NCBI GenBank assembly: GCA_903836465.1
Contig: CAILRB010000064.1
Span: forward strand, 1-45,317
Direction of reading: 5' to 3'
Source of the DNA: an uncultured Chlorobiaceae bacterium
GTDB taxonomy: Bacteria; Bacteroidota; Chlorobiia; Chlorobiales; Chlorobiaceae
Length of the DNA stretch: 45,317 nt
The notes under the pieces were generated by a model that ran no database searches, had not been told where the DNA came from, and saw only the letters and a list, made by a program, of their open reading frames with translations. Each line of letters starts with the position of its first letter. Position 1 is the first letter of the stretch. Shown in pieces: positions 5,935 to 15,374 of the stretch. A program made the translations under genes and the position numbers.

Positions 5935-6516
5935 ATGGCAACCTTTGCGTATGGACGGGTAAGCACAAAAGACCAGACAACGTACAATCAGCGTCTTGAA
6001 ATTGAGCGTGCAGGCTTCAAGGTTGACTACTGGTTTAATGATGAAGGAGTAAGCGGAAGCTCCCATGCCTCTCAGCGGCCACAGTTCAGTGCTCTGCTTG
6101 GTCAGATCAGAAACGGAGAAACCTTGATTGTCTCAAAACTTGACCGGCTTGGCCGTGATGCCCAAGATGTTCTCTCCACCATGAAAACTCTTGCAGAACG
6201 GGAGATTAAAGTATTCGTGATCCAGCTTGGTCAACTTGACCTCACTTCAACGGCAGGAAAACTCATGCTTACCATGTTGGCAGCAGTAGCCGAGATGGAA
6301 CGGGATATCTTGGTTGAAAGGACACAAGCAGGGTTGGCCAGGGCTAAGCAACAGGGCAAAACATTGGGCCGACCACTCAAAACAACAGAGCAGCAGCGCT
6401 CACAGATCATTGAGATGAGTAAGAGCGGCCAGTCGGTCAGTGCCCTCTCCCGAAGTTTTGGCATATCGCGAGCCACTGTCCTGCGAATAACTTTAAATCA
6501 GGATATCCCGCAATAA
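5935..6516 (+). CDS. tnpR: Serine recombinase, Tn3-family resolvase TnpR
   Basis: A 193-residue resolvase/invertase. The N-terminal catalytic domain has Ser10 in YGRVSTKDQT, the GVSGSS segment, the SKLDRLGRDAQD motif with catalytic arginines, and the long E-helix (AGKLMLTMLAAVAEMERD). A C-terminal helix-turn-helix (about residues 155-187, GQSVSALSRSFGISRATV) binds res half-sites. Length and domain order are normal, and no damage is visible. It would resolve cointegrates between two res copies. The palindromic region just upstream is its likely target and operator. It is followed at once by the remains of tnpA in the same reading frame. Confidence 0.92.
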   Translation: MATFAYGRVSTKDQTTYNQRLEIERAGFKVDYWFNDEGVSGSSHASQRPQFSALLGQIRNGETLIVSKLDRLGRDAQDVLSTMKTLAEREIKVFVIQLGQLDLTSTAGKLMLTMLAAVAEMERDILVERTQAGLARAKQQGKTLGRPLKTTEQQRSQIIEMSKSGQSVSALSRSFGISRATVLRITLNQDIPQ

Positions 6517-6795: not shown

Positions 6796-7803
6796 ATGCA
6801 GCTTGAGGATTGGAGTAAAATAGCTTGGCTTTTATTTATGTTTTCCGACATGCCAAGACTGATATTCAGAGGCGGACTCGTTTTGAAGAATTTGCCAAAA
6901 CTTTTCTTTCAACAGGAGTTTGGACTCAGTGATTTGTTTTCTACAGCTCATCGCCATGAAAACCAATCATGTGGACGCATTGTTTTTCAGGCATTGCTGC
7001 AAAATCTTGGATATATACTCTGCATGATGGTGTTCTTGGTTGTCTTCCATGCAGTTTTTTTTGCTTTTCTTTTGATTACTTATATCCTCATTCTTGCAAT
7101 AAGAGTTAGTATCCAAATAAAGCATAAGAACGCTTATGTGACTTCAAAAAATGGGCATAATATAAATGATTTGTTATTAAAACCCTTGAGGATGATTGTG
7201 CTACTCGTCGCGGTTTGGTGCTTTAATCAGCCAGTTTGGTTACTTGGTTTTGGAGTTCTGTTTGCGAAATGGGTTTTAACAATTCCTCATGATAGAATCT
7301 TTGATGTCCCAAATATATATCATGTGGCAGTTGTTCTTTTTTCAGCAGTACTTTTGTGTGTTCTCTATCCTTATGATATAGGTATGGTAAAGTCAGATGT
7401 GCTGATTTCATTCTTTTCTACGATAACGACGGTATATGCGACATTTGTTGGTTTGATAGCCATATTTTTCTCTATCATCCTTCAGGATAAAAAGACAGAG
7501 CCAGAATATTATCGATACTTTTCTGGTGGAATGATTATTAGTTTTACTACGGCATCAATAGTCATCTTTTTTGGGTTACTTGGTTTGATAATTGTGCCAT
7601 CTGATCAGATTAACTTATCGACAGCCTATATTTTTAGTATGTCCAATCACTTCAACTGGATGAGATATCTATTATTTAGCATTGTGTACGCATTAAGTTT
7701 ATTGGGACTTATGTCAACAGTCTTGATTGGCTATATCATGATTTTTAAAACCAGTAATCTTTTTGTGCCCTATTGGGGGTCTACTCACGAGCCGGAAAAA
7801 TAG
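6796..7803 (+). CDS. Multi-pass membrane protein of unknown function
   Basis: A 335-residue protein with a soluble amphipathic N-terminus of about 75 residues and roughly seven or eight hydrophobic segments. Pairs lie at about 75-100, 130-160 and 175-190, with further ones near 210-230, 247-268 and 290-320. It ends in a short hydrophilic tail (STHEPEK). I recognise no catalytic motif or family. It begins 80 bases outside the Tn3 repeat and runs tail-to-tail with livM, so it is a single-gene unit. Its location between transposon and importer suggests accessory DNA. A membrane effector or channel role is possible but unsupported. Confidence 0.6.
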   Translation: MQLEDWSKIAWLLFMFSDMPRLIFRGGLVLKNLPKLFFQQEFGLSDLFSTAHRHENQSCGRIVFQALLQNLGYILCMMVFLVVFHAVFFAFLLITYILILAIRVSIQIKHKNAYVTSKNGHNINDLLLKPLRMIVLLVAVWCFNQPVWLLGFGVLFAKWVLTIPHDRIFDVPNIYHVAVVLFSAVLLCVLYPYDIGMVKSDVLISFFSTITTVYATFVGLIAIFFSIILQDKKTEPEYYRYFSGGMIISFTTASIVIFFGLLGLIIVPSDQINLSTAYIFSMSNHFNWMRYLLFSIVYALSLLGLMSTVLIGYIMIFKTSNLFVPYWGSTHEPEK

Positions 7804-7817
7804 GGCGCTAAGCCGCG

Positions 7818-8729
7818 TTATTCAGAGCACTCAGGCTGTTCCTGTTTCCTGAAGCGCCCCCTAACAGGTAACAATAACTCTGTCACCCCATGTTTTCCGG
7901 TCATTATGACCATGACTAAAATTACGCCGTAGATAATTTGCCGCATGTTCGCAGCTATGTTGTCGGGCATACCGACAAAGCGGAGTGCTTCGGGCAGCAA
8001 AACTAAAAATGCTGAAGCAAAGAAACTGCCGGAGAGGTTGCCAAGGCCGCCAATGATGACGATGGAGAGAACGAAAATAGATTCATTCACGGTGAAGCTG
8101 GTCGGGTCAATGTAGGAGATGTAATGAGCATAGAACGTACCAGGAATGGCTGCCAACATGGCGCTCAACGTGAACGAGACTGTTTTGGAGAGATAAACAT
8201 TTTTGCCGATGCTTTGGCTGTAGATTTCATCTTCGCTGATTGCTGTCAATGTTTTCCCAAAGCCTGATCGGGTGATATTGCGCAACACAAACCAAATGAT
8301 AACAACAAAGAAAAGCGAAAATATTAGAAATGGGATTTTATTCTCGATGCTGAATCCGAACAGTTGAATGGAAGGAATACCCGGAATACCAAGCGGCCCT
8401 CTGGTCAACTCCATCCAGTTATTCATAATGGAGAAAAGAATAACCTGGATACCGAGAGTGCAAATGATGAAATAATCATCAACTGTCCGCAACGCAATAA
8501 GAGAGACAATAAAGGCTATAAAACCACTGATGAGCATTGCGAGTGGAATACTTGGCCAAAATGAAAAGCCGTAGTATGTGGAAAAGATTGCTGTTGTATA
8601 TGCGCCGATGCCGTAGAATCCTGCATGGGTTAAGGAGATGAGTCCAGCAAAGCCCGCCGAGAGATTCAAGCTTTGTGAAAGCATGGTGTAAAAGCAGATC
8701 AGAATGAAGAGATGCAAAACATATTCCAC
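7818..8729 (-). CDS. livM: Branched-chain amino acid type ABC permease LivM
   Basis: A 303-residue inner-membrane permease of the LivM family, with the typical N-terminal run LSLTHAGFYGIGAYTTA-like segment (here LISLTHAGFYGIGAYTTAI), repeated hydrophobic helices, and the EAA-like loop toward the C-terminus (GGLGNLSGSF). It pairs with LivH to form the channel. It starts at GTG 8729, chosen because a strong GGAGGTG site (8735-8741) precedes it. The livH stop lies three bases upstream, so the two are translationally coupled. The C-terminus RGRFRKQEQPECSE ends the operon. The substrate class (branched-chain amino acids, amides or urea) cannot be read from the permease alone. Confidence 0.88.
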   Translation of the reverse strand: MEYVLHLFILICFYTMLSQSLNLSAGFAGLISLTHAGFYGIGAYTTAIFSTYYGFSFWPSIPLAMLISGFIAFIVSLIALRTVDDYFIICTLGIQVILFSIMNNWMELTRGPLGIPGIPSIQLFGFSIENKIPFLIFSLFFVVIIWFVLRNITRSGFGKTLTAISEDEIYSQSIGKNVYLSKTVSFTLSAMLAAIPGTFYAHYISYIDPTSFTVNESIFVLSIVIIGGLGNLSGSFFASAFLVLLPEALRFVGMPDNIAANMRQIIYGVILVMVIMTGKHGVTELLLPVRGRFRKQEQPECSE

Positions 8730-8731
8730 TG

Positions 8732-9604
8732 CTACACCTCCACTTTTTTCAGCCGTTTGCCGCTAAAGCCAAGTGGCTTCCAGATCAAAAACAGGATGAG
8801 AATAATATAGGTAACGGCATCCATCCATTTTGTATCGAGGTAAAATGCCGCCATGTGCTGTGCTGTTGCTACCAAGAACGATCCTGCAAGTAACCCTCTT
8901 ATGCTGCCAACACCTCCGATAATCATAGCAACAACGCCATACAGCAAAAGATTAAAGCCAAATGTTGGCGTCATGTTAGTATCCATTGCTGACAGGATTC
9001 CGGCAATTGCAGCTAAGGCGGAGCCAAGTGCAAAAGCAATGAGAATGATTTTGTTGGATGAAATGCCGTAAATATTGCAGAGTTCTGGATTGCTTGAAAC
9101 CGCACGAATTGATTTACCTGTTGCGGTGAAATGCAAAAACAGGTTGACTCCAATAAATAAGATAACAGAAACACAAATTGTTATGATTTGAACAGTTGTT
9201 ATGTACGCACCAAATATTTGATGGCCAACGGTTATTTCTGCTGTGTTAATGACTTTTGTATCGTCACCAAAGTAAAGCGAAATGATATTTTGTAAAACGA
9301 TGTATAACCCGATTGATGCTATTAAATAAGCTAATGGTGGTAAGTTGCGTTGGCGCATCGGACGATACAATAACAATTCGCAAAGCATACCTATAAGCAT
9401 TGCGCCAATGATAGCTAAAGCAAAGGAAACTAAATAAAAAACTGATAATTTACTTATGAATAAGTACGCCAAATAAGTTGCGGTAGTAATTATCACAGCA
9501 TGAGATAAATCAAAAAATTTTACACAAGAATATTTAATATTTATTGATAAAGAAATTAATAATATTAAAAAAGATATAGCTATGATATTAAAAATCAATT
9601 GCAT
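8732..9604 (-). CDS. livH: Branched-chain amino acid type ABC permease LivH
   Basis: A 290-residue permease of the LivH family. The central motif ELLLYRPMRQRNLPPLAYLI and the later GGVGSIRGLLAGSFLVA loop, which contacts the ATPases, are characteristic. Its ATG overlaps the stop of the preceding gene by one base (TAATG), so it is now coupled to the inserted membrane/coiled-coil gene rather than to another transporter gene. Base composition changes within the gene: the first 55 or so codons are very AT-rich like the inserted genes, while the rest resembles livM. That may mark a recombination boundary. Confidence 0.88.
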   Translation of the reverse strand: MQLIFNIIAISFLILLISLSINIKYSCVKFFDLSHAVIITTATYLAYLFISKLSVFYLVSFALAIIGAMLIGMLCELLLYRPMRQRNLPPLAYLIASIGLYIVLQNIISLYFGDDTKVINTAEITVGHQIFGAYITTVQIITICVSVILFIGVNLFLHFTATGKSIRAVSSNPELCNIYGISSNKIILIAFALGSALAAIAGILSAMDTNMTPTFGFNLLLYGVVAMIIGGVGSIRGLLAGSFLVATAQHMAAFYLDTKWMDAVTYIILILFLIWKPLGFSGKRLKKVEV

Positions 9605-10347
9605 TATTTATCACTTATTTTTTTTCGAATTCCAATAGTTTTATTTTGTTTTATTAAACTTCGCATTGATGCACGCAAAGAATCATATTGCCGATAGTTA
9701 TCTAAACGGTAAGAATTGATTTGCCAATTCAAACTATCAATTTTATTTCTAATAACAACCATATTGTTGAATTTACTATTCACAACACTTTCTGATTTTT
9801 TTAACCAGAATCCCTGATAAGAAGAATATCCAAGCAGGAAAAGACTTGCAAAAAGCAACAACACAACAAACCTAATTAAATCAATCCAACGTCTTGACTG
9901 TAATTCAATTAAATCATGATTATTGTTTCTATATTTATTTATTTCGCTATCAGATAACTCAATTTTAGAAAGAGAATATTGCAATTTGAGTTTTACAAAA
10001 TCTCCTTTCTGGTTTGTAGTCCTCCATCCTTCATCAAAATTTTTTAATACAAAAAATATTTTTAAAAAAAACAATGTGGCAATAAACAGTGAAGACCATG
10101 ACAAAAGCAATGGAACTATTAACCCAATAGACACAAGAGCATCGAGTTTTATAAGGATAGTAATTAAATAACTTGTTGTGATTGATAGTAAGGCATTGCG
10201 AATATAATCATATTGCAAAATATCTTTTTTAACGAATGATGCCCATTCGTCTGTAAAACTTTTCACATCAAAGAAAATATGCCATATATACTTAATAAGT
10301 GCTAATACAAATAGCCTAACAAAATTTAACCAGTATATACACCGCAC
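9604..10347 (-). CDS. Membrane protein with C-terminal coiled coil, unknown function
   Basis: A 247-residue protein from a GTG at 10347 (no good ribosome site seen; an internal start is possible). Predicted membrane segments lie near residues 5-25, 50-70, 74-100 and 158-178. The last 60 residues are polar with heptad-like hydrophobic spacing (SKFNNMVVIRNKIDSLNWQI and on), suggesting a coiled coil outside the second pair of helices. It is AT-rich and sits between an unknown soluble gene and livH, with which it shares a TAATG junction. No family is recognised. It might anchor or gate the importer or belong to an unrelated inserted cassette. Confidence 0.6.
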   Translation of the reverse strand: MRCIYWLNFVRLFVLALIKYIWHIFFDVKSFTDEWASFVKKDILQYDYIRNALLSITTSYLITILIKLDALVSIGLIVPLLLSWSSLFIATLFFLKIFFVLKNFDEGWRTTNQKGDFVKLKLQYSLSKIELSDSEINKYRNNNHDLIELQSRRWIDLIRFVVLLLFASLFLLGYSSYQGFWLKKSESVVNSKFNNMVVIRNKIDSLNWQINSYRLDNYRQYDSLRASMRSLIKQNKTIGIRKKISDK

Positions 10348-10358
10348 AATGTGTCTGT

Positions 10359-11255
10359 TTATTTATTTATCTCATCAGTAAAACCATTAGCTAATTGTGT
10401 TTTTGAAACATCGTAGAGCTTTTTAAGTTTTTCGTAGCCAAAACGTTTACTTGAATCTAAAGTAATCATGGTATTAAATAAATCACGAGCATCTTGCCAA
10501 TCATCTCTATTAACAGCGTTTAAACTATTCGTTGTTATATTTGAAGAAAGCTGAGCATTTATATGATCAATCATTAGCTTTTCCGAATAGGCATCATAGT
10601 GTCCCTTACATTCCTCAAGAAGTTTTGTATCACTATATCTTCTGATTGCTGATTGAACTATTTCCCCAATTGCTGCGCTTTTTTTTTGGAGGCAAAAAAC
10701 AATAAAATGAAAAATCTGAACCGGATTAGATTCCATATAATTATAAAAAACACATAAATAATAAGGATTATCCCCCCAAAGAAACAAAGCTTTCTCTAAA
10801 TCACATAATAATCTTTTTTCAGGGTCTTCCTCAATTAAATAATTTAATATATCCAGCGAAAGGACTCTTCCTTCTTGAGATTGATGGTTAGTTATACATG
10901 TAAGAAAAAAATTACTTGAAAGACTATTGGGAAATTCTATAGTTTTTAAAAAATCATAATTTCGTTCTATTTTTTGTTGTTTTTTGTATCCATGCTTTGA
11001 ATTAATTATTTTTTCTGCGGACTCAAGCATTTGTAAGTACTCTCTATAAGTATCTAAATAAGTATCTTCCAATAATGGGTGCATATAATTAAGAACAGGA
11101 AAAGCATCAGCGGAGAAATATTCATAATTACCGATTCTTTTTATTAGATCTACTTTTCCAATTGCCACTTGATATGGATGATCTATTAGTTTTTTATCAA
11201 GCAATTCAAATAGTACTTGAGTGAATAATTCTTTATGATTTTCTTCTTTTTTCAT
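10359..11255 (-). CDS. Soluble protein of unknown function
   Basis: This 298-residue protein has no signal peptide or membrane segment. The sequence is rich in Lys, Glu, Tyr and Leu and looks mostly helical, with pairs of amphipathic helices that could form a TPR-like or other helical-repeat scaffold. No catalytic motif stands out. It begins two bases after the methyltransferase stop and ends eleven bases before the next start, so it is part of the same transcript. Strong AT bias is shared with its neighbours and differs from livG, livF and livM. I do not recognise the family. Confidence 0.6.
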   Translation of the reverse strand: MKKEENHKELFTQVLFELLDKKLIDHPYQVAIGKVDLIKRIGNYEYFSADAFPVLNYMHPLLEDTYLDTYREYLQMLESAEKIINSKHGYKKQQKIERNYDFLKTIEFPNSLSSNFFLTCITNHQSQEGRVLSLDILNYLIEEDPEKRLLCDLEKALFLWGDNPYYLCVFYNYMESNPVQIFHFIVFCLQKKSAAIGEIVQSAIRRYSDTKLLEECKGHYDAYSEKLMIDHINAQLSSNITTNSLNAVNRDDWQDARDLFNTMITLDSSKRFGYEKLKKLYDVSKTQLANGFTDEINK

Positions 11256-11257
11256 AT

Positions 11258-12058
11258 TTAAATAGCATTATTATAAATTAAGATTGATTCCAAATACGGC
11301 AGACCTCTTACTTTAGAAGTAACAATGTCATGCTTTAGCCTTAATTTAGATATATATCCAACAACGGTTTCTTTTAATACAAAGTTAGCCTTTATCTCTT
11401 CGGTATAAATTGTAAATTTAAATTTTTTGTAATTCAAAAGAAACAAATACGATTTTACTGTATAAGGCATTCTGATGTTTACAGGAAATCTCATTTTGTA
11501 AAAAGAAAAAAATATATTTTTACGTTTATTATCTATTCCAACTCCACGTTGTTCATAGATTTTTTTTGAATTAAAATATTTAACACCATCTCTAAAGTCT
11601 ATTAATATTAACCCATTAGGATTTGTAATTTTAATAAGCTCATCAATAGCTTTTTTCTGCTCTTCAAAAGTCAAATGTCCTAAAGTATTTCCCCTAAACA
11701 AAATCAGATCATATTTATTGTTGCAGTATTTGCTAAGGTCTAAAACATTGCATGTAAAAAATAAAGATTTATTGATATTTTTTGGTCGTAGGCGATTTAC
11801 TGTAAATTCAACCATTGTGGCACATATATCTGAACCATTGACAGAAAAACCATTTTTATAAAGTTGTTCTATATCGTTACCACTGCCACAGCAAGCGTCA
11901 AAAATAGCATTGATATGGTGTTTTAAAAAAAAAGGAGTTAAAGTGTCCAGTAAATGATTGGAATATTGCCGGTGATCTGAATAAATATAATCGTAATACT
12001 CTAAATTATATTGATAGTTATGCAATAACTTGTCTTTATTTGTACTACTTATTATCAT
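11258..12058 (-). CDS. Class I SAM-dependent methyltransferase
   Basis: The ATG at 12058 gives 266 residues (a TTG one codon upstream is the alternative). The SAM-binding motif I is clear, IFDACCGSGNDIEQL (about residues 55-69). An acidic residue ends strand 2 (NGSDICATM), motif II-like DLILFRGNTLGHL follows, and NPNGLILIDFRDG is the post-motif strand. The glycine N-methyltransferase-like arrangement suggests a small-molecule or protein substrate rather than DNA, since no NPPY or other DNA-methylase motif is present. It overlaps the end of the binding-protein gene by 14 bases, so it is translationally coupled to the transporter. Why an importer operon contains a methyltransferase is unknown. 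Confidence 0.8.
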   Translation of the reverse strand: MIISSTNKDKLLHNYQYNLEYYDYIYSDHRQYSNHLLDTLTPFFLKHHINAIFDACCGSGNDIEQLYKNGFSVNGSDICATMVEFTVNRLRPKNINKSLFFTCNVLDLSKYCNNKYDLILFRGNTLGHLTFEEQKKAIDELIKITNPNGLILIDFRDGVKYFNSKKIYEQRGVGIDNKRKNIFFSFYKMRFPVNIRMPYTVKSYLFLLNYKKFKFTIYTEEIKANFVLKETVVGYISKLRLKHDIVTSKVRGLPYLESILIYNNAI

Positions 12059-13187
12059 CAAATGAGAATTTTTTTATAAATACCAAACTATCATTCAATA
12101 TTTTTAATACTTCAACCTGCTTTAAGACACCACCATGGCCATCAAATGAAGTAACACCTGATAACCCTGCATAATTTTTTATTCCATTAATATATGTAAT
12201 CAGACTATTTGTATTAGTCCCTTTTTTTCTAATAGCATACGCAATAATATTCATAGCATCATAAGCATGACAAACAGTTTCATCAGGCTCTATGCCATTG
12301 ATTTTTTTATAACCAGCAACAAATTTTTTAGAAGACAAGCTTACATTCTTCAAATCAATATATGGTTTAGAAAAAACAACGCCATTTCTTGCAGTGCCCG
12401 CAATTTTCTTACAATCATCAGAATTGACTGTTAAATTAGCAAACCATTCAGGAAAATATCCTATCTCTTTGGATTGCTTTAAAATCAAGCCCATTTCTTT
12501 TGAAAGGGCTGTTAGATATATTGCTTTAATGTTTTTGCTTTTTAGTTTTTGAACTAAAAGCTTATAATCACTTGATTCGCCGTCAAAATAAATATTAGAA
12601 GAAACCGTGCCATTTTGTTTTTTAAATTCCGAAATAAAAGCCTCATTTAATGAAATAGTATAATCATTATTTTGTGTTAAAGTGGTTATCTCCCTAATAC
12701 CACTACTATAAATAATATATGCCATAGCATATCCATCAAAATTATCAGAAGTCCAATTTCTAATAAAATTAGGTTTTATATTTGTCAGTTGAGGACTTGA
12801 TGCACCAGGCGCAAAAAGAAGAGTTTGATTTGGCAAGTTATCTATCAGCACTTTAGTCGTGCTTGAATAAACATCACCTAAAATAATGGCAACATTATTG
12901 ATATTTATCAACTTATTAAGTGCTGAAATTGCATCTTTAGGGTTTGATTTCGCATCTTCATAAATAACCTCTACTTTTTTACCATTAATTCCTCCATCAG
13001 CATTAATTTCATCCACAGCAAAGCGAATTCCTTCTATCGATTTTTTACCATAATCGCCAGCAACGCCTGTTGATGAAAATATAGCACCAATGATAATATT
13101 GTTATTTTGTTTCTGACTATTTGAGTTACAACCAAAAAAAACTGAGATAATTAGCAAAATAAGAATACTAATTTTTATAATTTTCAT
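12045..13187 (-). CDS. Branched-chain amino acid type ABC substrate-binding lipoprotein
   Basis: A 380-residue periplasmic binding protein of the Leu/Ile/Val-binding type (Peripla_BP_6). The N-terminus is a lipoprotein signal with Cys20 after VFFG, so the mature protein should be membrane-tethered. Family motifs include IIIGAIFSSTGVAGDYGKKS, GIRFAVDEINADGGINGKKV and VIYEDAKSNPKDAISALNKL. A Ser/Thr-rich ligand loop (APGASSPQLT) and a C-terminal G.SGVTSFDGHG segment follow. It delivers ligand to LivHM. It is very AT-rich compared with livG and livF upstream. The ligand cannot be told from sequence. Confidence 0.88.
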   Translation of the reverse strand: MKIIKISILILLIISVFFGCNSNSQKQNNNIIIGAIFSSTGVAGDYGKKSIEGIRFAVDEINADGGINGKKVEVIYEDAKSNPKDAISALNKLININNVAIILGDVYSSTTKVLIDNLPNQTLLFAPGASSPQLTNIKPNFIRNWTSDNFDGYAMAYIIYSSGIREITTLTQNNDYTISLNEAFISEFKKQNGTVSSNIYFDGESSDYKLLVQKLKSKNIKAIYLTALSKEMGLILKQSKEIGYFPEWFANLTVNSDDCKKIAGTARNGVVFSKPYIDLKNVSLSSKKFVAGYKKINGIEPDETVCHAYDAMNIIAYAIRKKGTNTNSLITYINGIKNYAGLSGVTSFDGHGGVLKQVEVLKILNDSLVFIKKFSFDDNK

Positions 13188-13204
13188 TATCTATTGATGT
13201 TTAT

Positions 13205-13906
13205 TTATACAAAAATCGAATTTAATTCGTTAATATTAAAACCAGATTTCACTGCTGATTCTATAAATAGCTTGCCCAGCTTCATCCCGACCACTCTACT
13301 CGCAATATTTAAACACTCTTTCACACGATGCTCGACAATAAGTAAAGTAACTCCAAGCCGCTCATTTAGTGACTTCAAATTTCCAGCAATAAAATCAATA
13401 TTCTGAGGCGATAATCCGGCAAACGGCTCATCAATTAAAATCATCTTAGGCTGATGTAATGTTGCCATTGCCAACGTAAGCAATTGGCGCTCACCACCGC
13501 TAAGCGTCATTGGCGTTCGCTTACGATTGGGCTCCAGTGTCTTAAAAACGGATAGCGTATCCTCTATTCTCTGTCGCAACAGCTTATTATCAAGCATCAA
13601 ACCTGCCATCTCCAGATTCTCTTTCACCGTCAGCTCTTCAAAGAGATTATTCTTTTGCGGAATGTAAAGCAACCCTTTTTTCAATAATGCCGCAGTTGGC
13701 TTGCCGGTTATGTTCTCTCCATCAAACCATACCTGCCCATTATCCCACTGAGGCAACATTCCGTAAATGGCTTTCAGCAAGGTTGACTTCCCGCTGCCGT
13801 TGTTGCCCGCAAGTAAAACAATATCGCCTTTGTTCACTTCCAAAGAAACATTAAAAAGCACCTGCTTTTTGCCATAGCCTGTTGACAGGTTTTCAACTTT
13901 CAGCAT
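13205..13906 (-). CDS. livF: ABC importer ATPase LivF
   Basis: A 233-residue ATP-binding subunit. Walker A is GNNGSGKST (about residues 34-42), the Q-loop is IPQKNNLFEELTV, the signature is LSGGERQLLTLA, Walker B is MILIDEPFAGLSP, and the switch histidine is in IVEHRV. Size and the NLEMAG segment after the Q-loop match LivF. It begins seven bases after livG and ends 18 bases before the binding-protein start, in the same operon. It should form a heterodimer with LivG to power uptake. Confidence 0.9.
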   Translation of the reverse strand: MLKVENLSTGYGKKQVLFNVSLEVNKGDIVLLAGNNGSGKSTLLKAIYGMLPQWDNGQVWFDGENITGKPTAALLKKGLLYIPQKNNLFEELTVKENLEMAGLMLDNKLLRQRIEDTLSVFKTLEPNRKRTPMTLSGGERQLLTLAMATLHQPKMILIDEPFAGLSPQNIDFIAGNLKSLNERLGVTLLIVEHRVKECLNIASRVVGMKLGKLFIESAVKSGFNINELNSIFV

Positions 13907-13913
13907 AGCATTC

Positions 13914-14663
13914 TCATAGGTATGCCGCCATTACCTGCTTGTCTTGCCGAAGCGCATCCATAGTCTCAAAGGTGGAAAGGGTTCCTTCATGCAAAAAGAA
14001 AATCGTGTCGGCAACATCGGCAATAAAATCGGTGTTGTGCTCAATCAGCAAAATGGTTTTGCCCTGCTGTTTCAAGGTAAGAATAAGCTTGGCAATTTTA
14101 TTACGATACTCTGGCTGGATTCCTGCTACAGCTTCATCAAGTAGCAGCAGCTTTGCGCCGTTGGCAACACAGCAGGCGAGCGTCAACAGCTTTTGCTGTC
14201 CGTAGGAGATTTCACCAGCCAACGAATTCTTCACATCATTGAGGTAATACTCTTTAGTAATATCATCCGCTATTTGACCTAACTGCTTATTTGCAGAACG
14301 GTAAAACTGTCCAGGCAGCATGGCATGGAGCCAATTATCCGTTGGATTGTGCTGCATTGCCAGGATAATATTCTCTTTTACCGTCAGTTTTGTAATGAGC
14401 CGCAAATCCTGAAAGGTTCTGCCAATGCCTTGCCTGTTGATGGTGTATGGCTGTTGGTGTGTCAGATTCTTTCCCTCGAACAAAATCTCTCCGTTTTGTG
14501 GCTTCATGAAGCCGGTAATCAGATTGAACAGCGTTGTTTTCCCCGCGCCATTGCCACCCATCAAGGCATAAATCTTCTTTTCCTCCAGCGACAATGAGAG
14601 GTCTTTGAGGATTTGCTTTTCAGGAACAAAGCCAAAAGTGAGATGTTTGAGTTCTATTATCAC
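13914..14663 (-). CDS. livG: ABC importer ATPase LivG
   Basis: A 249-residue ATP-binding subunit with Walker A GGNGAGKTT (about residues 35-43), Q-loop RTFQDLRLITKLTV, signature region ISYGQQKLLTLA and Walker B LLLLDEAVAGI. The signature has Tyr and Gln in place of Gly-Gly (SYGQQ), a normal LivG variant. IEHNTDFI carries the switch histidine. The start is a GTG at 14663 with no strong ribosome site. A short frame ending TNPFVPEQ stops at 14660-14662, overlapping this start. That suggests livG was once coupled to an upstream gene now lost. Confidence 0.88.
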   Translation of the reverse strand: MIIELKHLTFGFVPEKQILKDLSLSLEEKKIYALMGGNGAGKTTLFNLITGFMKPQNGEILFEGKNLTHQQPYTINRQGIGRTFQDLRLITKLTVKENIILAMQHNPTDNWLHAMLPGQFYRSANKQLGQIADDITKEYYLNDVKNSLAGEISYGQQKLLTLACCVANGAKLLLLDEAVAGIQPEYRNKIAKLILTLKQQGKTILLIEHNTDFIADVADTIFFLHEGTLSTFETMDALRQDKQVMAAYL

Positions 14664-14764
14664 TGTTCAGGTACAAACGGATTGGTTGTTCCACAGACTG
14701 TATGAGTAACTCTCTTCCTTCATTTTACCCTCAGTGCCGGTTTTATTACCCCCCGCTTCTGTAA

Positions 14765-14781
14765 GTTTCTGAATCAGAAAC
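14765..14781. repeat. Perfect 8-bp inverted repeat around one base
   Basis: GTTTCTGA-A-TCAGAAAC is a perfect palindrome about 100 bases ahead of the livG start. It has no T-run, so it is not a terminator. It could be an operator for the importer operon. Confidence 0.5.
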
Positions 14782-14801
14782 CCGTATCCAGCAGATTTGG
14801 C

Positions 14802-14815
14802 TTAGCTTAAGCTAA
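14802..14815. repeat. Perfect 14-bp palindrome
   Basis: TTAGCTTAAGCTAA is fully self-complementary and lies 20 bases from the previous palindrome. A dimeric regulator binding here could control livG, but there is no regulator gene nearby to support it. Confidence 0.45.
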
Positions 14816-15374
14816 TTCGGTAATACCCTGTTTGTTTTTTACTTCAATAACTTACTATTTTACAAAACATTCAGGTCAATTTCAAAGCTTCTGGGATAAC
14901 CTACTAACAGTCCTATCGAACGAACGATAGAGTATACAGGGAACAACATTTCACGCTCCTTGAAGTCGCAAAGGACTTCGAGCCATCACTCCTGATCTCG
15001 AATGATATGCGAACTAACAGATGGCGACCATTAAATGAAGCCTATTTGTGGAAATCTACACATTTGCACCCGTCAGACGCTTAAACAAACCCAACTCCAC
15101 TCCAAAACAGAAACTTCAGTGTTATTCCAAGCACATTATGTGAAAGAATCCTGAGTGTAGACCGGTGTATGGCAAAATAAACAGCCAGTGGGGTGATAAG
15201 GTACTATACTGTGCCCTCCCCGAAGGTATAATTTCCTCACCTGAGCCTGCAAATAACCCCACTGCGGGATACACTGATAAGACTGGCAAGCGCGGTGACA
15301 TCACAAAAGCGAAGAAACAACGAATTAAAAGAGCCTTATAAAGTCAGGATTTTTTGTTTCATGCAAGAATTGTT

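Follow-up and report, generated by a model that had tools for sequence, protein, structure and literature searches.

A LIV-type importer operon of an uncultured Chlorobiaceae bacterium as a possible allele of a modular sensor-effector system

Why do genes for a methyltransferase, a 298-residue soluble protein (U298) and a membrane protein lie in the middle of an operon for a LIV (Leu/Ile/Val)-type ATP-binding cassette (ABC) importer? The operon that raises this question is part of a 45,317-nt stretch of DNA (the window) from an uncultured Chlorobiaceae bacterium (GenBank assembly GCA_903836465.1, contig CAILRB010000064.1). Open reading frames and Pfam profile matches were used to define the operon, in which all importer and cassette genes are on the minus strand in the order LivG, LivF, binding protein, methyltransferase, U298, membrane protein, LivH and LivM. 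These data confirm a first-pass annotation that had placed the three genes between the binding-protein gene and livH. The same annotation had proposed either a specialised system or a cassette merged with an importer operon, and our results agree with it in spirit. Its description of three inserted genes takes in too little: the trio is the cargo, but the binding-protein gene, the 3' end of livF and the 5' third of livH also belong to the exchanged unit. We propose, with a probability of roughly 55%, that the window operon is one allele of a modular sensor-effector system built on a LIV importer core, probably of the conflict type.

An AT-rich cassette exchanged between conserved flanks

A LivM-profile scan of genome contigs yielded 47 loci, and a search of the phylum added further ones. 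Cargo accompanies the liv core at about 36 loci. Most of these are from Chlorobiota, Bacteroidota and Ignavibacteria; several of the taxonomic assignments derive from metagenome bins and could be incorrect. All complete LivG-LivF...LivH-LivM operons (30/30) contain one to five cargo genes besides the binding protein, and because every complete operon in the set carries cargo, we regard cargo as a standing part of the system.

In the window, the block formed by the binding-protein, methyltransferase, U298 and membrane-protein genes and the 5' ~300 nt of livH is 27-30% GC, compared with ~44% for the surrounding LivG-LivF...LivH-LivM operon. Total GC and GC at third codon positions (GC3) are 0.27/0.23 for the methyltransferase, 0.29/0.18 for U298, 0.28/0.23 for the membrane protein and 0.30/0.20 for the binding protein, versus 0.45/0.52 for LivG, 0.42/0.45 for LivF and 0.44/0.53 for LivM. 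These per-gene values (27-30% versus 42-45%) bear out the earlier claim of an AT-rich block that takes in the binding protein and the first part of livH. Within livH, GC per 75 nt ranges from 14 to 41% over the 5' ~300 nt and from 32 to 48% in the rest. Cargo is more AT-rich than LivG, LivF and LivM in 38 of 40 loci (Wilcoxon p = 5.6e-10), and because the same bias recurs in these loci, the AT-richness of the window cassette is not due to chance.

The mosaic structure of the operon was analysed with DNA alignments of the Chlorobiaceae copies. Identity stays at ~73-98% along livG-livF until about nt 1275 of the pair, falls to 44-80% across the last ~180 nt of livF, and in livH rises from 41-69% in the first 300 nt to ~72-96% beyond. 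The GC shift in the window falls at the same places as the drop in identity, and the divergent part of the LivH protein alignment ends near residue 93. In window coordinates (all minus strand), the LivG ATPase gene (13914..14663) belongs to the conserved core, as does the LivF ATPase gene (13205..13906) except for its last ~150 nt (about 13205-13355), which are on the variable side of the breakpoint. The LivH permease gene (8732..9604) is variable and AT-rich over codons ~1-95 (9604 to ~9310) and conserved core (~90% identical) in the remainder, and the LivM permease gene (7818..8729) is again core, being 89-91% identical to relatives with different cargo. Core DNA that is ~85-95% identical gives way to ~50% identity between the last part of livF and the early part of livH, so the cassette is exchanged between conserved flanks. 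In other lineages, pairs with LivM identity of at least 80% and no shared cargo mostly have C-terminal parts of LivH that are 71-93% identical, N-terminal parts that are 38-63% identical and binding proteins that are 23-42% identical. The N-terminal part of LivH is less conserved generally (36 versus 60% across all pairs), and the better evidence of exchange therefore comes from the close pairs, in which DNA identity is saturated.

The same genome carries a second operon (locus L029), whose LivG, LivF, LivH and LivM are 94, 83, 79 and 90% identical to those in the window (LivG of L030 is 91% identical) and which carries a radical SAM enzyme and a TIR protein as cargo. Congeneric genomes carry other cargoes: an aminotransferase, a 304-aa membrane protein and two large proteins without assignment (L030), a RelA/SpoT protein and a SEFIR-NTPase (L031), two radical SAM enzymes and a membrane protein (L032), and a SLATT-like protein with two transmembrane segments (2TM) and a GGDEF protein (L046). 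A single chromosomal site, with shared emrAB-like genes downstream of LivM in four congeneric genomes, holds a different cargo in each of three species and a deletion in the fourth. Together, the breakpoints and this shared site with differing cargo indicate that the unit being exchanged begins at the 3' end of livF, takes in the binding protein and ends with the 5' third of livH. Locus L047 (2955-3883, G026:C32), which occupies this site, has the first ~140 livG codons fused to the last ~185 livM codons, with loss of the whole cassette.

Binding proteins, enzymes and effectors of the cassettes

Over 36 loci, the identity of binding proteins barely tracks that of LivM (r = 0.17). In the 24 pairs with a cargo homologue in common, binding-protein identity averages 42.5%, versus 29.5% in the rest, and LivM identity is 64 versus 65% (Mantel p = 5e-5). 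Ranking by binding protein puts a cargo-sharing locus first for 20 of 28 loci, whereas ranking by LivM does so for 4 of 28. Loci L029 and L059 have binding proteins that are 54% identical and radical SAM enzymes that are 47% identical, and the C-terminal ~240 aa of the L029 TIR protein match the soluble part of the L059 membrane protein (26%, 1e-8). The homologous C-terminal domain thus has a TIR head in L029 and predicted membrane segments in L059. In the pairs L055/L113, L057/L080 and L031/L074, the enzyme and binding protein are related and the remaining cargo differs. Because both are shared between loci whose other cargo differs, the binding protein and enzyme look like a specificity unit, and the effector looks interchangeable. 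Tracking of the enzyme by the LivH N-terminus is unsupported (p = 0.21).

Typical cargo pairs a single small-molecule enzyme with a single membrane-anchored protein, and a conflict-type domain is sometimes present. The enzymes are radical SAM and B12-radical SAM proteins, EgtD-like and other methyltransferases, polyprenyl synthetase, class II aminoacyl-tRNA synthetase (aaRS)-like proteins and aminotransferases, and the conflict-type domains are TIR, bSEFIR (2e-14), CBASS 2TM/SLATT, SLATT_1 (7e-18), caspase (5e-17), RelA/SpoT and GGDEF. A single protein in L077 (6907-9096) joins two predicted transmembrane segments, a middle domain and an EgtD-like methyltransferase domain, and this fusion links the membrane and enzyme roles. 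Cysteine triads are present in the 20 radical SAM proteins checked, some with unusual spacing, which rules out catalytically dead decoys for these proteins; the caspase His/Cys dyad, the GGDEF motif and the TIR Glu are likewise intact in the proteins checked. A single adaptor domain common to all membrane cargo was also rejected, because profile comparison stayed at noise level except for the L029/L059 pair.

The cassettes could instead reflect private small-molecule signalling or scavenging of the siderophore or Lsr/AI-2 kind, in which the enzyme makes a modified amino acid, the membrane protein exports or senses it, and the matched binding protein and importer retrieve it. Diversity would then represent private strain specificities rather than immunity. 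The co-travel of enzyme and binding protein, the retained catalytic motifs and the many enzymes of types common in the synthesis of modified amino acids or small molecules (radical SAM, EgtD-like, aaRS-like, aminotransferase) all speak for such a role. However, TIR, SEFIR, SLATT, caspase and RelA/SpoT cargo would be unexpected for scavenging, and most membrane cargo proteins have 1-3 predicted transmembrane segments, unlike the usual exporters. We consider private signalling unlikely, though a serious contender.

The binding proteins resemble Leu/Ile/Val-binding proteins, and their sequence relatives in the PDB bind amino acids. An SS / P-x-x-SSP-x-LT motif, read by eye, is seen in many of the cassette binding proteins. 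The binding proteins of L057, L061, L066, L072, L077 and L083 have an N-terminal hydrophobic segment without a lipobox, suggesting an uncleaved membrane anchor. In the window, the binding protein (12045..13187; Peripla_BP_6, 8e-42; lipobox FFGC) also resembles Leu/Ile/Val-binding proteins. The S-adenosylmethionine-dependent methyltransferase (11258..12061; Methyltransf_25, 1e-11) has a weak, distant relation to glycine/sarcosine N-methyltransferases and is related to a cargo methyltransferase of L113 (1e-8). U298 (10359..11255) and the 247-aa membrane protein (9604..10347), which has ~3 hydrophobic segments by hydropathy and a coiled-coil-like C-terminus, complete the variable cassette. Neither has a match in Pfam, NCBIfam or PADLOC, both are absent from 60/60 relatives searched, and no homologues of the membrane protein were found. 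The binding-protein and methyltransferase genes overlap by 14 nt from the ATG at 12058 or 17 nt from a TTG start, gaps of 2 and 11 nt separate the methyltransferase from U298 and U298 from the membrane protein, and the membrane-protein gene overlaps livH by 1 nt; the first-pass annotation had given these junctions correctly, leaving the 11-nt gap unmentioned. Because the binding protein is Leu/Ile/Val-like and the methyltransferase has glycine/sarcosine N-methyltransferases among its relatives, we propose an amino-acid-like ligand. In the path that we infer, the methyltransferase would make or process this ligand, the importer would sense it, and U298 together with the membrane protein, a candidate effector, would provide the output.

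The closest binding protein in the set is that of L073, from a Bacteroidota metagenome-assembled genome (35% identity). The L073 cassette lies in the same place and holds a distant U298 homologue (25%, phmmer E = 0.0012 among cargo proteins), a small membrane protein and an EgtD-like methyltransferase. Comparable genes thus recur within a liv operon, and the exact methyltransferase-U298-membrane protein trio is found only in this genome among the genomes searched. The restriction of the trio to one genome is what would be expected of an ordinary liv operon into which unrelated genes were inserted by chance, an outcome that the first-pass annotation had foreseen should no other genome pair such genes with liv genes; the L073 cassette contradicts it. 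As a general account, chance insertion is rejected: every complete relative has cargo between the same genes, binding protein and cargo are associated, and the AT bias extends across nearly all loci compared. Moreover, selfish insertions, such as the transposase in L054 and the AbiE pair in L114 and L116, look recognisably different. Chance insertion is thus a very improbable explanation of the window operon.

Distribution and comparison with known systems

More distant relatives show the usual binding protein-H-M-G-F order, and a second arrangement, cargo-binding protein-cargo-H-M-G-F, carries SLATT and TIR in L114 and TIR and caspase in L116. LivM matches at 1e-70 were obtained in only 13 of 394 genomes sampled in the phylum, some of these being ordinary operons, and the system is therefore rare and patchy. 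In L114 (6791-10012) and L116 (9299-10917), an AbiEi/AbiEii-like gene pair lies between cargo and LivH. The pair in L114 has a 124-codon LivH fragment in front of it and a full LivH behind it, as if one cassette had been placed ahead of another. A degenerate relative, L078 (8976-9723), has an antitoxin/PIN-like toxin pair between LivG and LivM, and in another, L054 (4150-5196), a transposase-like gene splits the binding protein.

In the window, a leader of ~230 nt 5' of livG (14664..14895, minus strand) has conserved counterparts (81-82%) in the paralogous operon on contig C44 of the same genome and in the G026 deletion remnant. This leader has no Rfam match, and its best promoter-like site (-35 at 14885, -10 at 14857) is a consensus match only. 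Genes for a serine resolvase (5935-6516, plus strand) and a multi-transmembrane protein (6796-7803, plus strand) lie immediately 3' of LivM, convergent with the operon.

The window has all the parts of a LIV importer: a Peripla_BP_6 binding protein, two BPD_transp_2 permeases and two ABC ATPases that keep their Walker A and signature motifs. Walker B escaped the motif pattern in a minority of ATPase copies, all outside the window. The operons thus resemble LIV/HAAT importers (LivKHMGF, UrtABCDE) in having all five components, ATPase motifs in most copies and LIV-binding-protein relatives in the PDB. Unlike them, they have the order G-F-cassette-H-M rather than binding protein-H-M-G-F, an obligatory variable cargo, a hypervariable binding protein and mosaic livF and livH genes; with cargo present in 30/30 complete G-F...H-M operons, none consists of importer genes only. 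In the Lsr/AI-2 system, an ABC importer and a small-molecule enzyme also share an operon, but Lsr cargo is fixed, whereas in the liv cassettes a change of binding protein brings a change of enzyme type, and there are effectors as well. The agr and pyoverdine loci have a hypervariable centre between conserved flanks, with the specificity module and receptor swapped together and breakpoints within the flanking genes. The liv operons share this joint exchange and placement of breakpoints, but have an ABC binding protein as candidate receptor, diverse enzymes as candidate synthases, and effector domains in addition.

The TIR, SEFIR, SLATT/2TM and caspase domains in sister cassettes, and the exchange of TIR for transmembrane segments on one effector, are reminiscent of CBASS, Thoeris and SLATT-TIR conflict systems. 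In contrast to nucleotide-centred conflict systems, the sensor side here appears to be the binding protein and importer. CBASS-like 2TM/SLATT or TIR effectors occur in L046, L114 and L029, none is recognisable in the window, and no CBASS CD-NTase (SMODS) match was found in the window or in the sister cargo scanned. ThsB-like TIR proteins occur in L114, L116 and L029, with no ThsA match among the cargo scanned. The diversifying conflict systems of multicellular prokaryotes (Kaur et al. 2020, PMC7159879) likewise combine a conserved core with highly variable effector modules. Their cores are MoxR-vWA, GTPase or protease, the term "ABC" is absent from the main text of that paper, and no MoxR-vWA or GTPase-protease core domains were found in the cargo scanned here. 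The first-pass annotation knew of no described system of this composition, and we found none in the open-access library searched; judged from this incomplete check, the system looks undescribed.

A proposed sensor-effector mechanism

Dozens of bacteria from several phyla share the same core with differing cargo, which suggests an undescribed, fast-diversifying sensing or defence-like system. In the mechanism that we propose, a conserved LIV-type ABC core (LivG, LivF, most of LivH, and LivM) would serve as the frame for an exchangeable cassette, which encodes a binding protein, a small-molecule enzyme and at least one effector or membrane protein. The binding protein would capture an amino-acid-like ligand made or processed by the cassette enzyme, and occupancy of the importer, or import itself, would report the ligand to the cell. 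This report may gate an effector arm, putatively U298 and the membrane protein in the window and TIR, SEFIR, SLATT, caspase, RelA/SpoT or GGDEF proteins elsewhere, whose action would bring about cell arrest or death as a conflict-type response. Homologous recombination via the conserved flanks would swap cassettes and diversify both ligand and effector. The proposal builds on the modular exchange, the co-inheritance of binding protein and cargo, the swapped effector head and the conflict-type domains of sister cassettes, all read from comparison of genomes; beyond these we infer a ligand common to binding protein and enzyme, gating of the effector and a role in conflict. More specifically, the system may be immune- or kin-recognition-like, the importer serving as a chassis for cassettes that pair a ligand-specific binding protein and its cognate enzyme with a swappable killing or dormancy effector. 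This narrower proposal is tentative, and we rate it slightly short of even odds.

Several observations weigh against a conflict-type sensor-effector system. Many cargo sets, such as polyprenyl synthetase with a 2TM protein, are without a known conflict domain, and U298 and the window membrane protein have no recognisable effector domain. Co-inheritance of binding protein and enzyme could stem from linkage in one transferred cassette, not from a shared ligand. The viral contigs searched held no copy and the plasmids searched no close copy, the best being below 60% identity (Azospirillum), and a plasmid- or phage-borne island was rejected on these grounds. Defence genes are only ~2x as common near the operons as in control stretches when counted by PADLOC model hits (~132 versus 60 over 108 versus 106 proteins), and these hits are not distinct proteins.

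Ordinary signal transduction could also be at work, with the ABC importer as receptor for an environmental amino acid and its occupancy relayed to a cytoplasmic enzyme or messenger. GGDEF and RelA/SpoT cargo exist, and there are membrane proteins that, by inspection, have an extracytoplasmic segment between two transmembrane segments, as would suit an importer-coupled sensory switch of this kind. Hypervariability, AT-rich cargo and the swapping of effector heads would nevertheless be unusual in housekeeping signalling, and we hold such a switch to be improbable.

If the window operon is indeed an allele of a modular sensor-effector system, ABC importers and their binding proteins would join the parts used for conflict sensing and response in bacteria. 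The sister cassettes would then represent dozens of natural receptor-enzyme pairs whose ligands may be predictable from the enzymes, and their exchange would constitute a recombination route that reshuffles receptor specificity and effector together.

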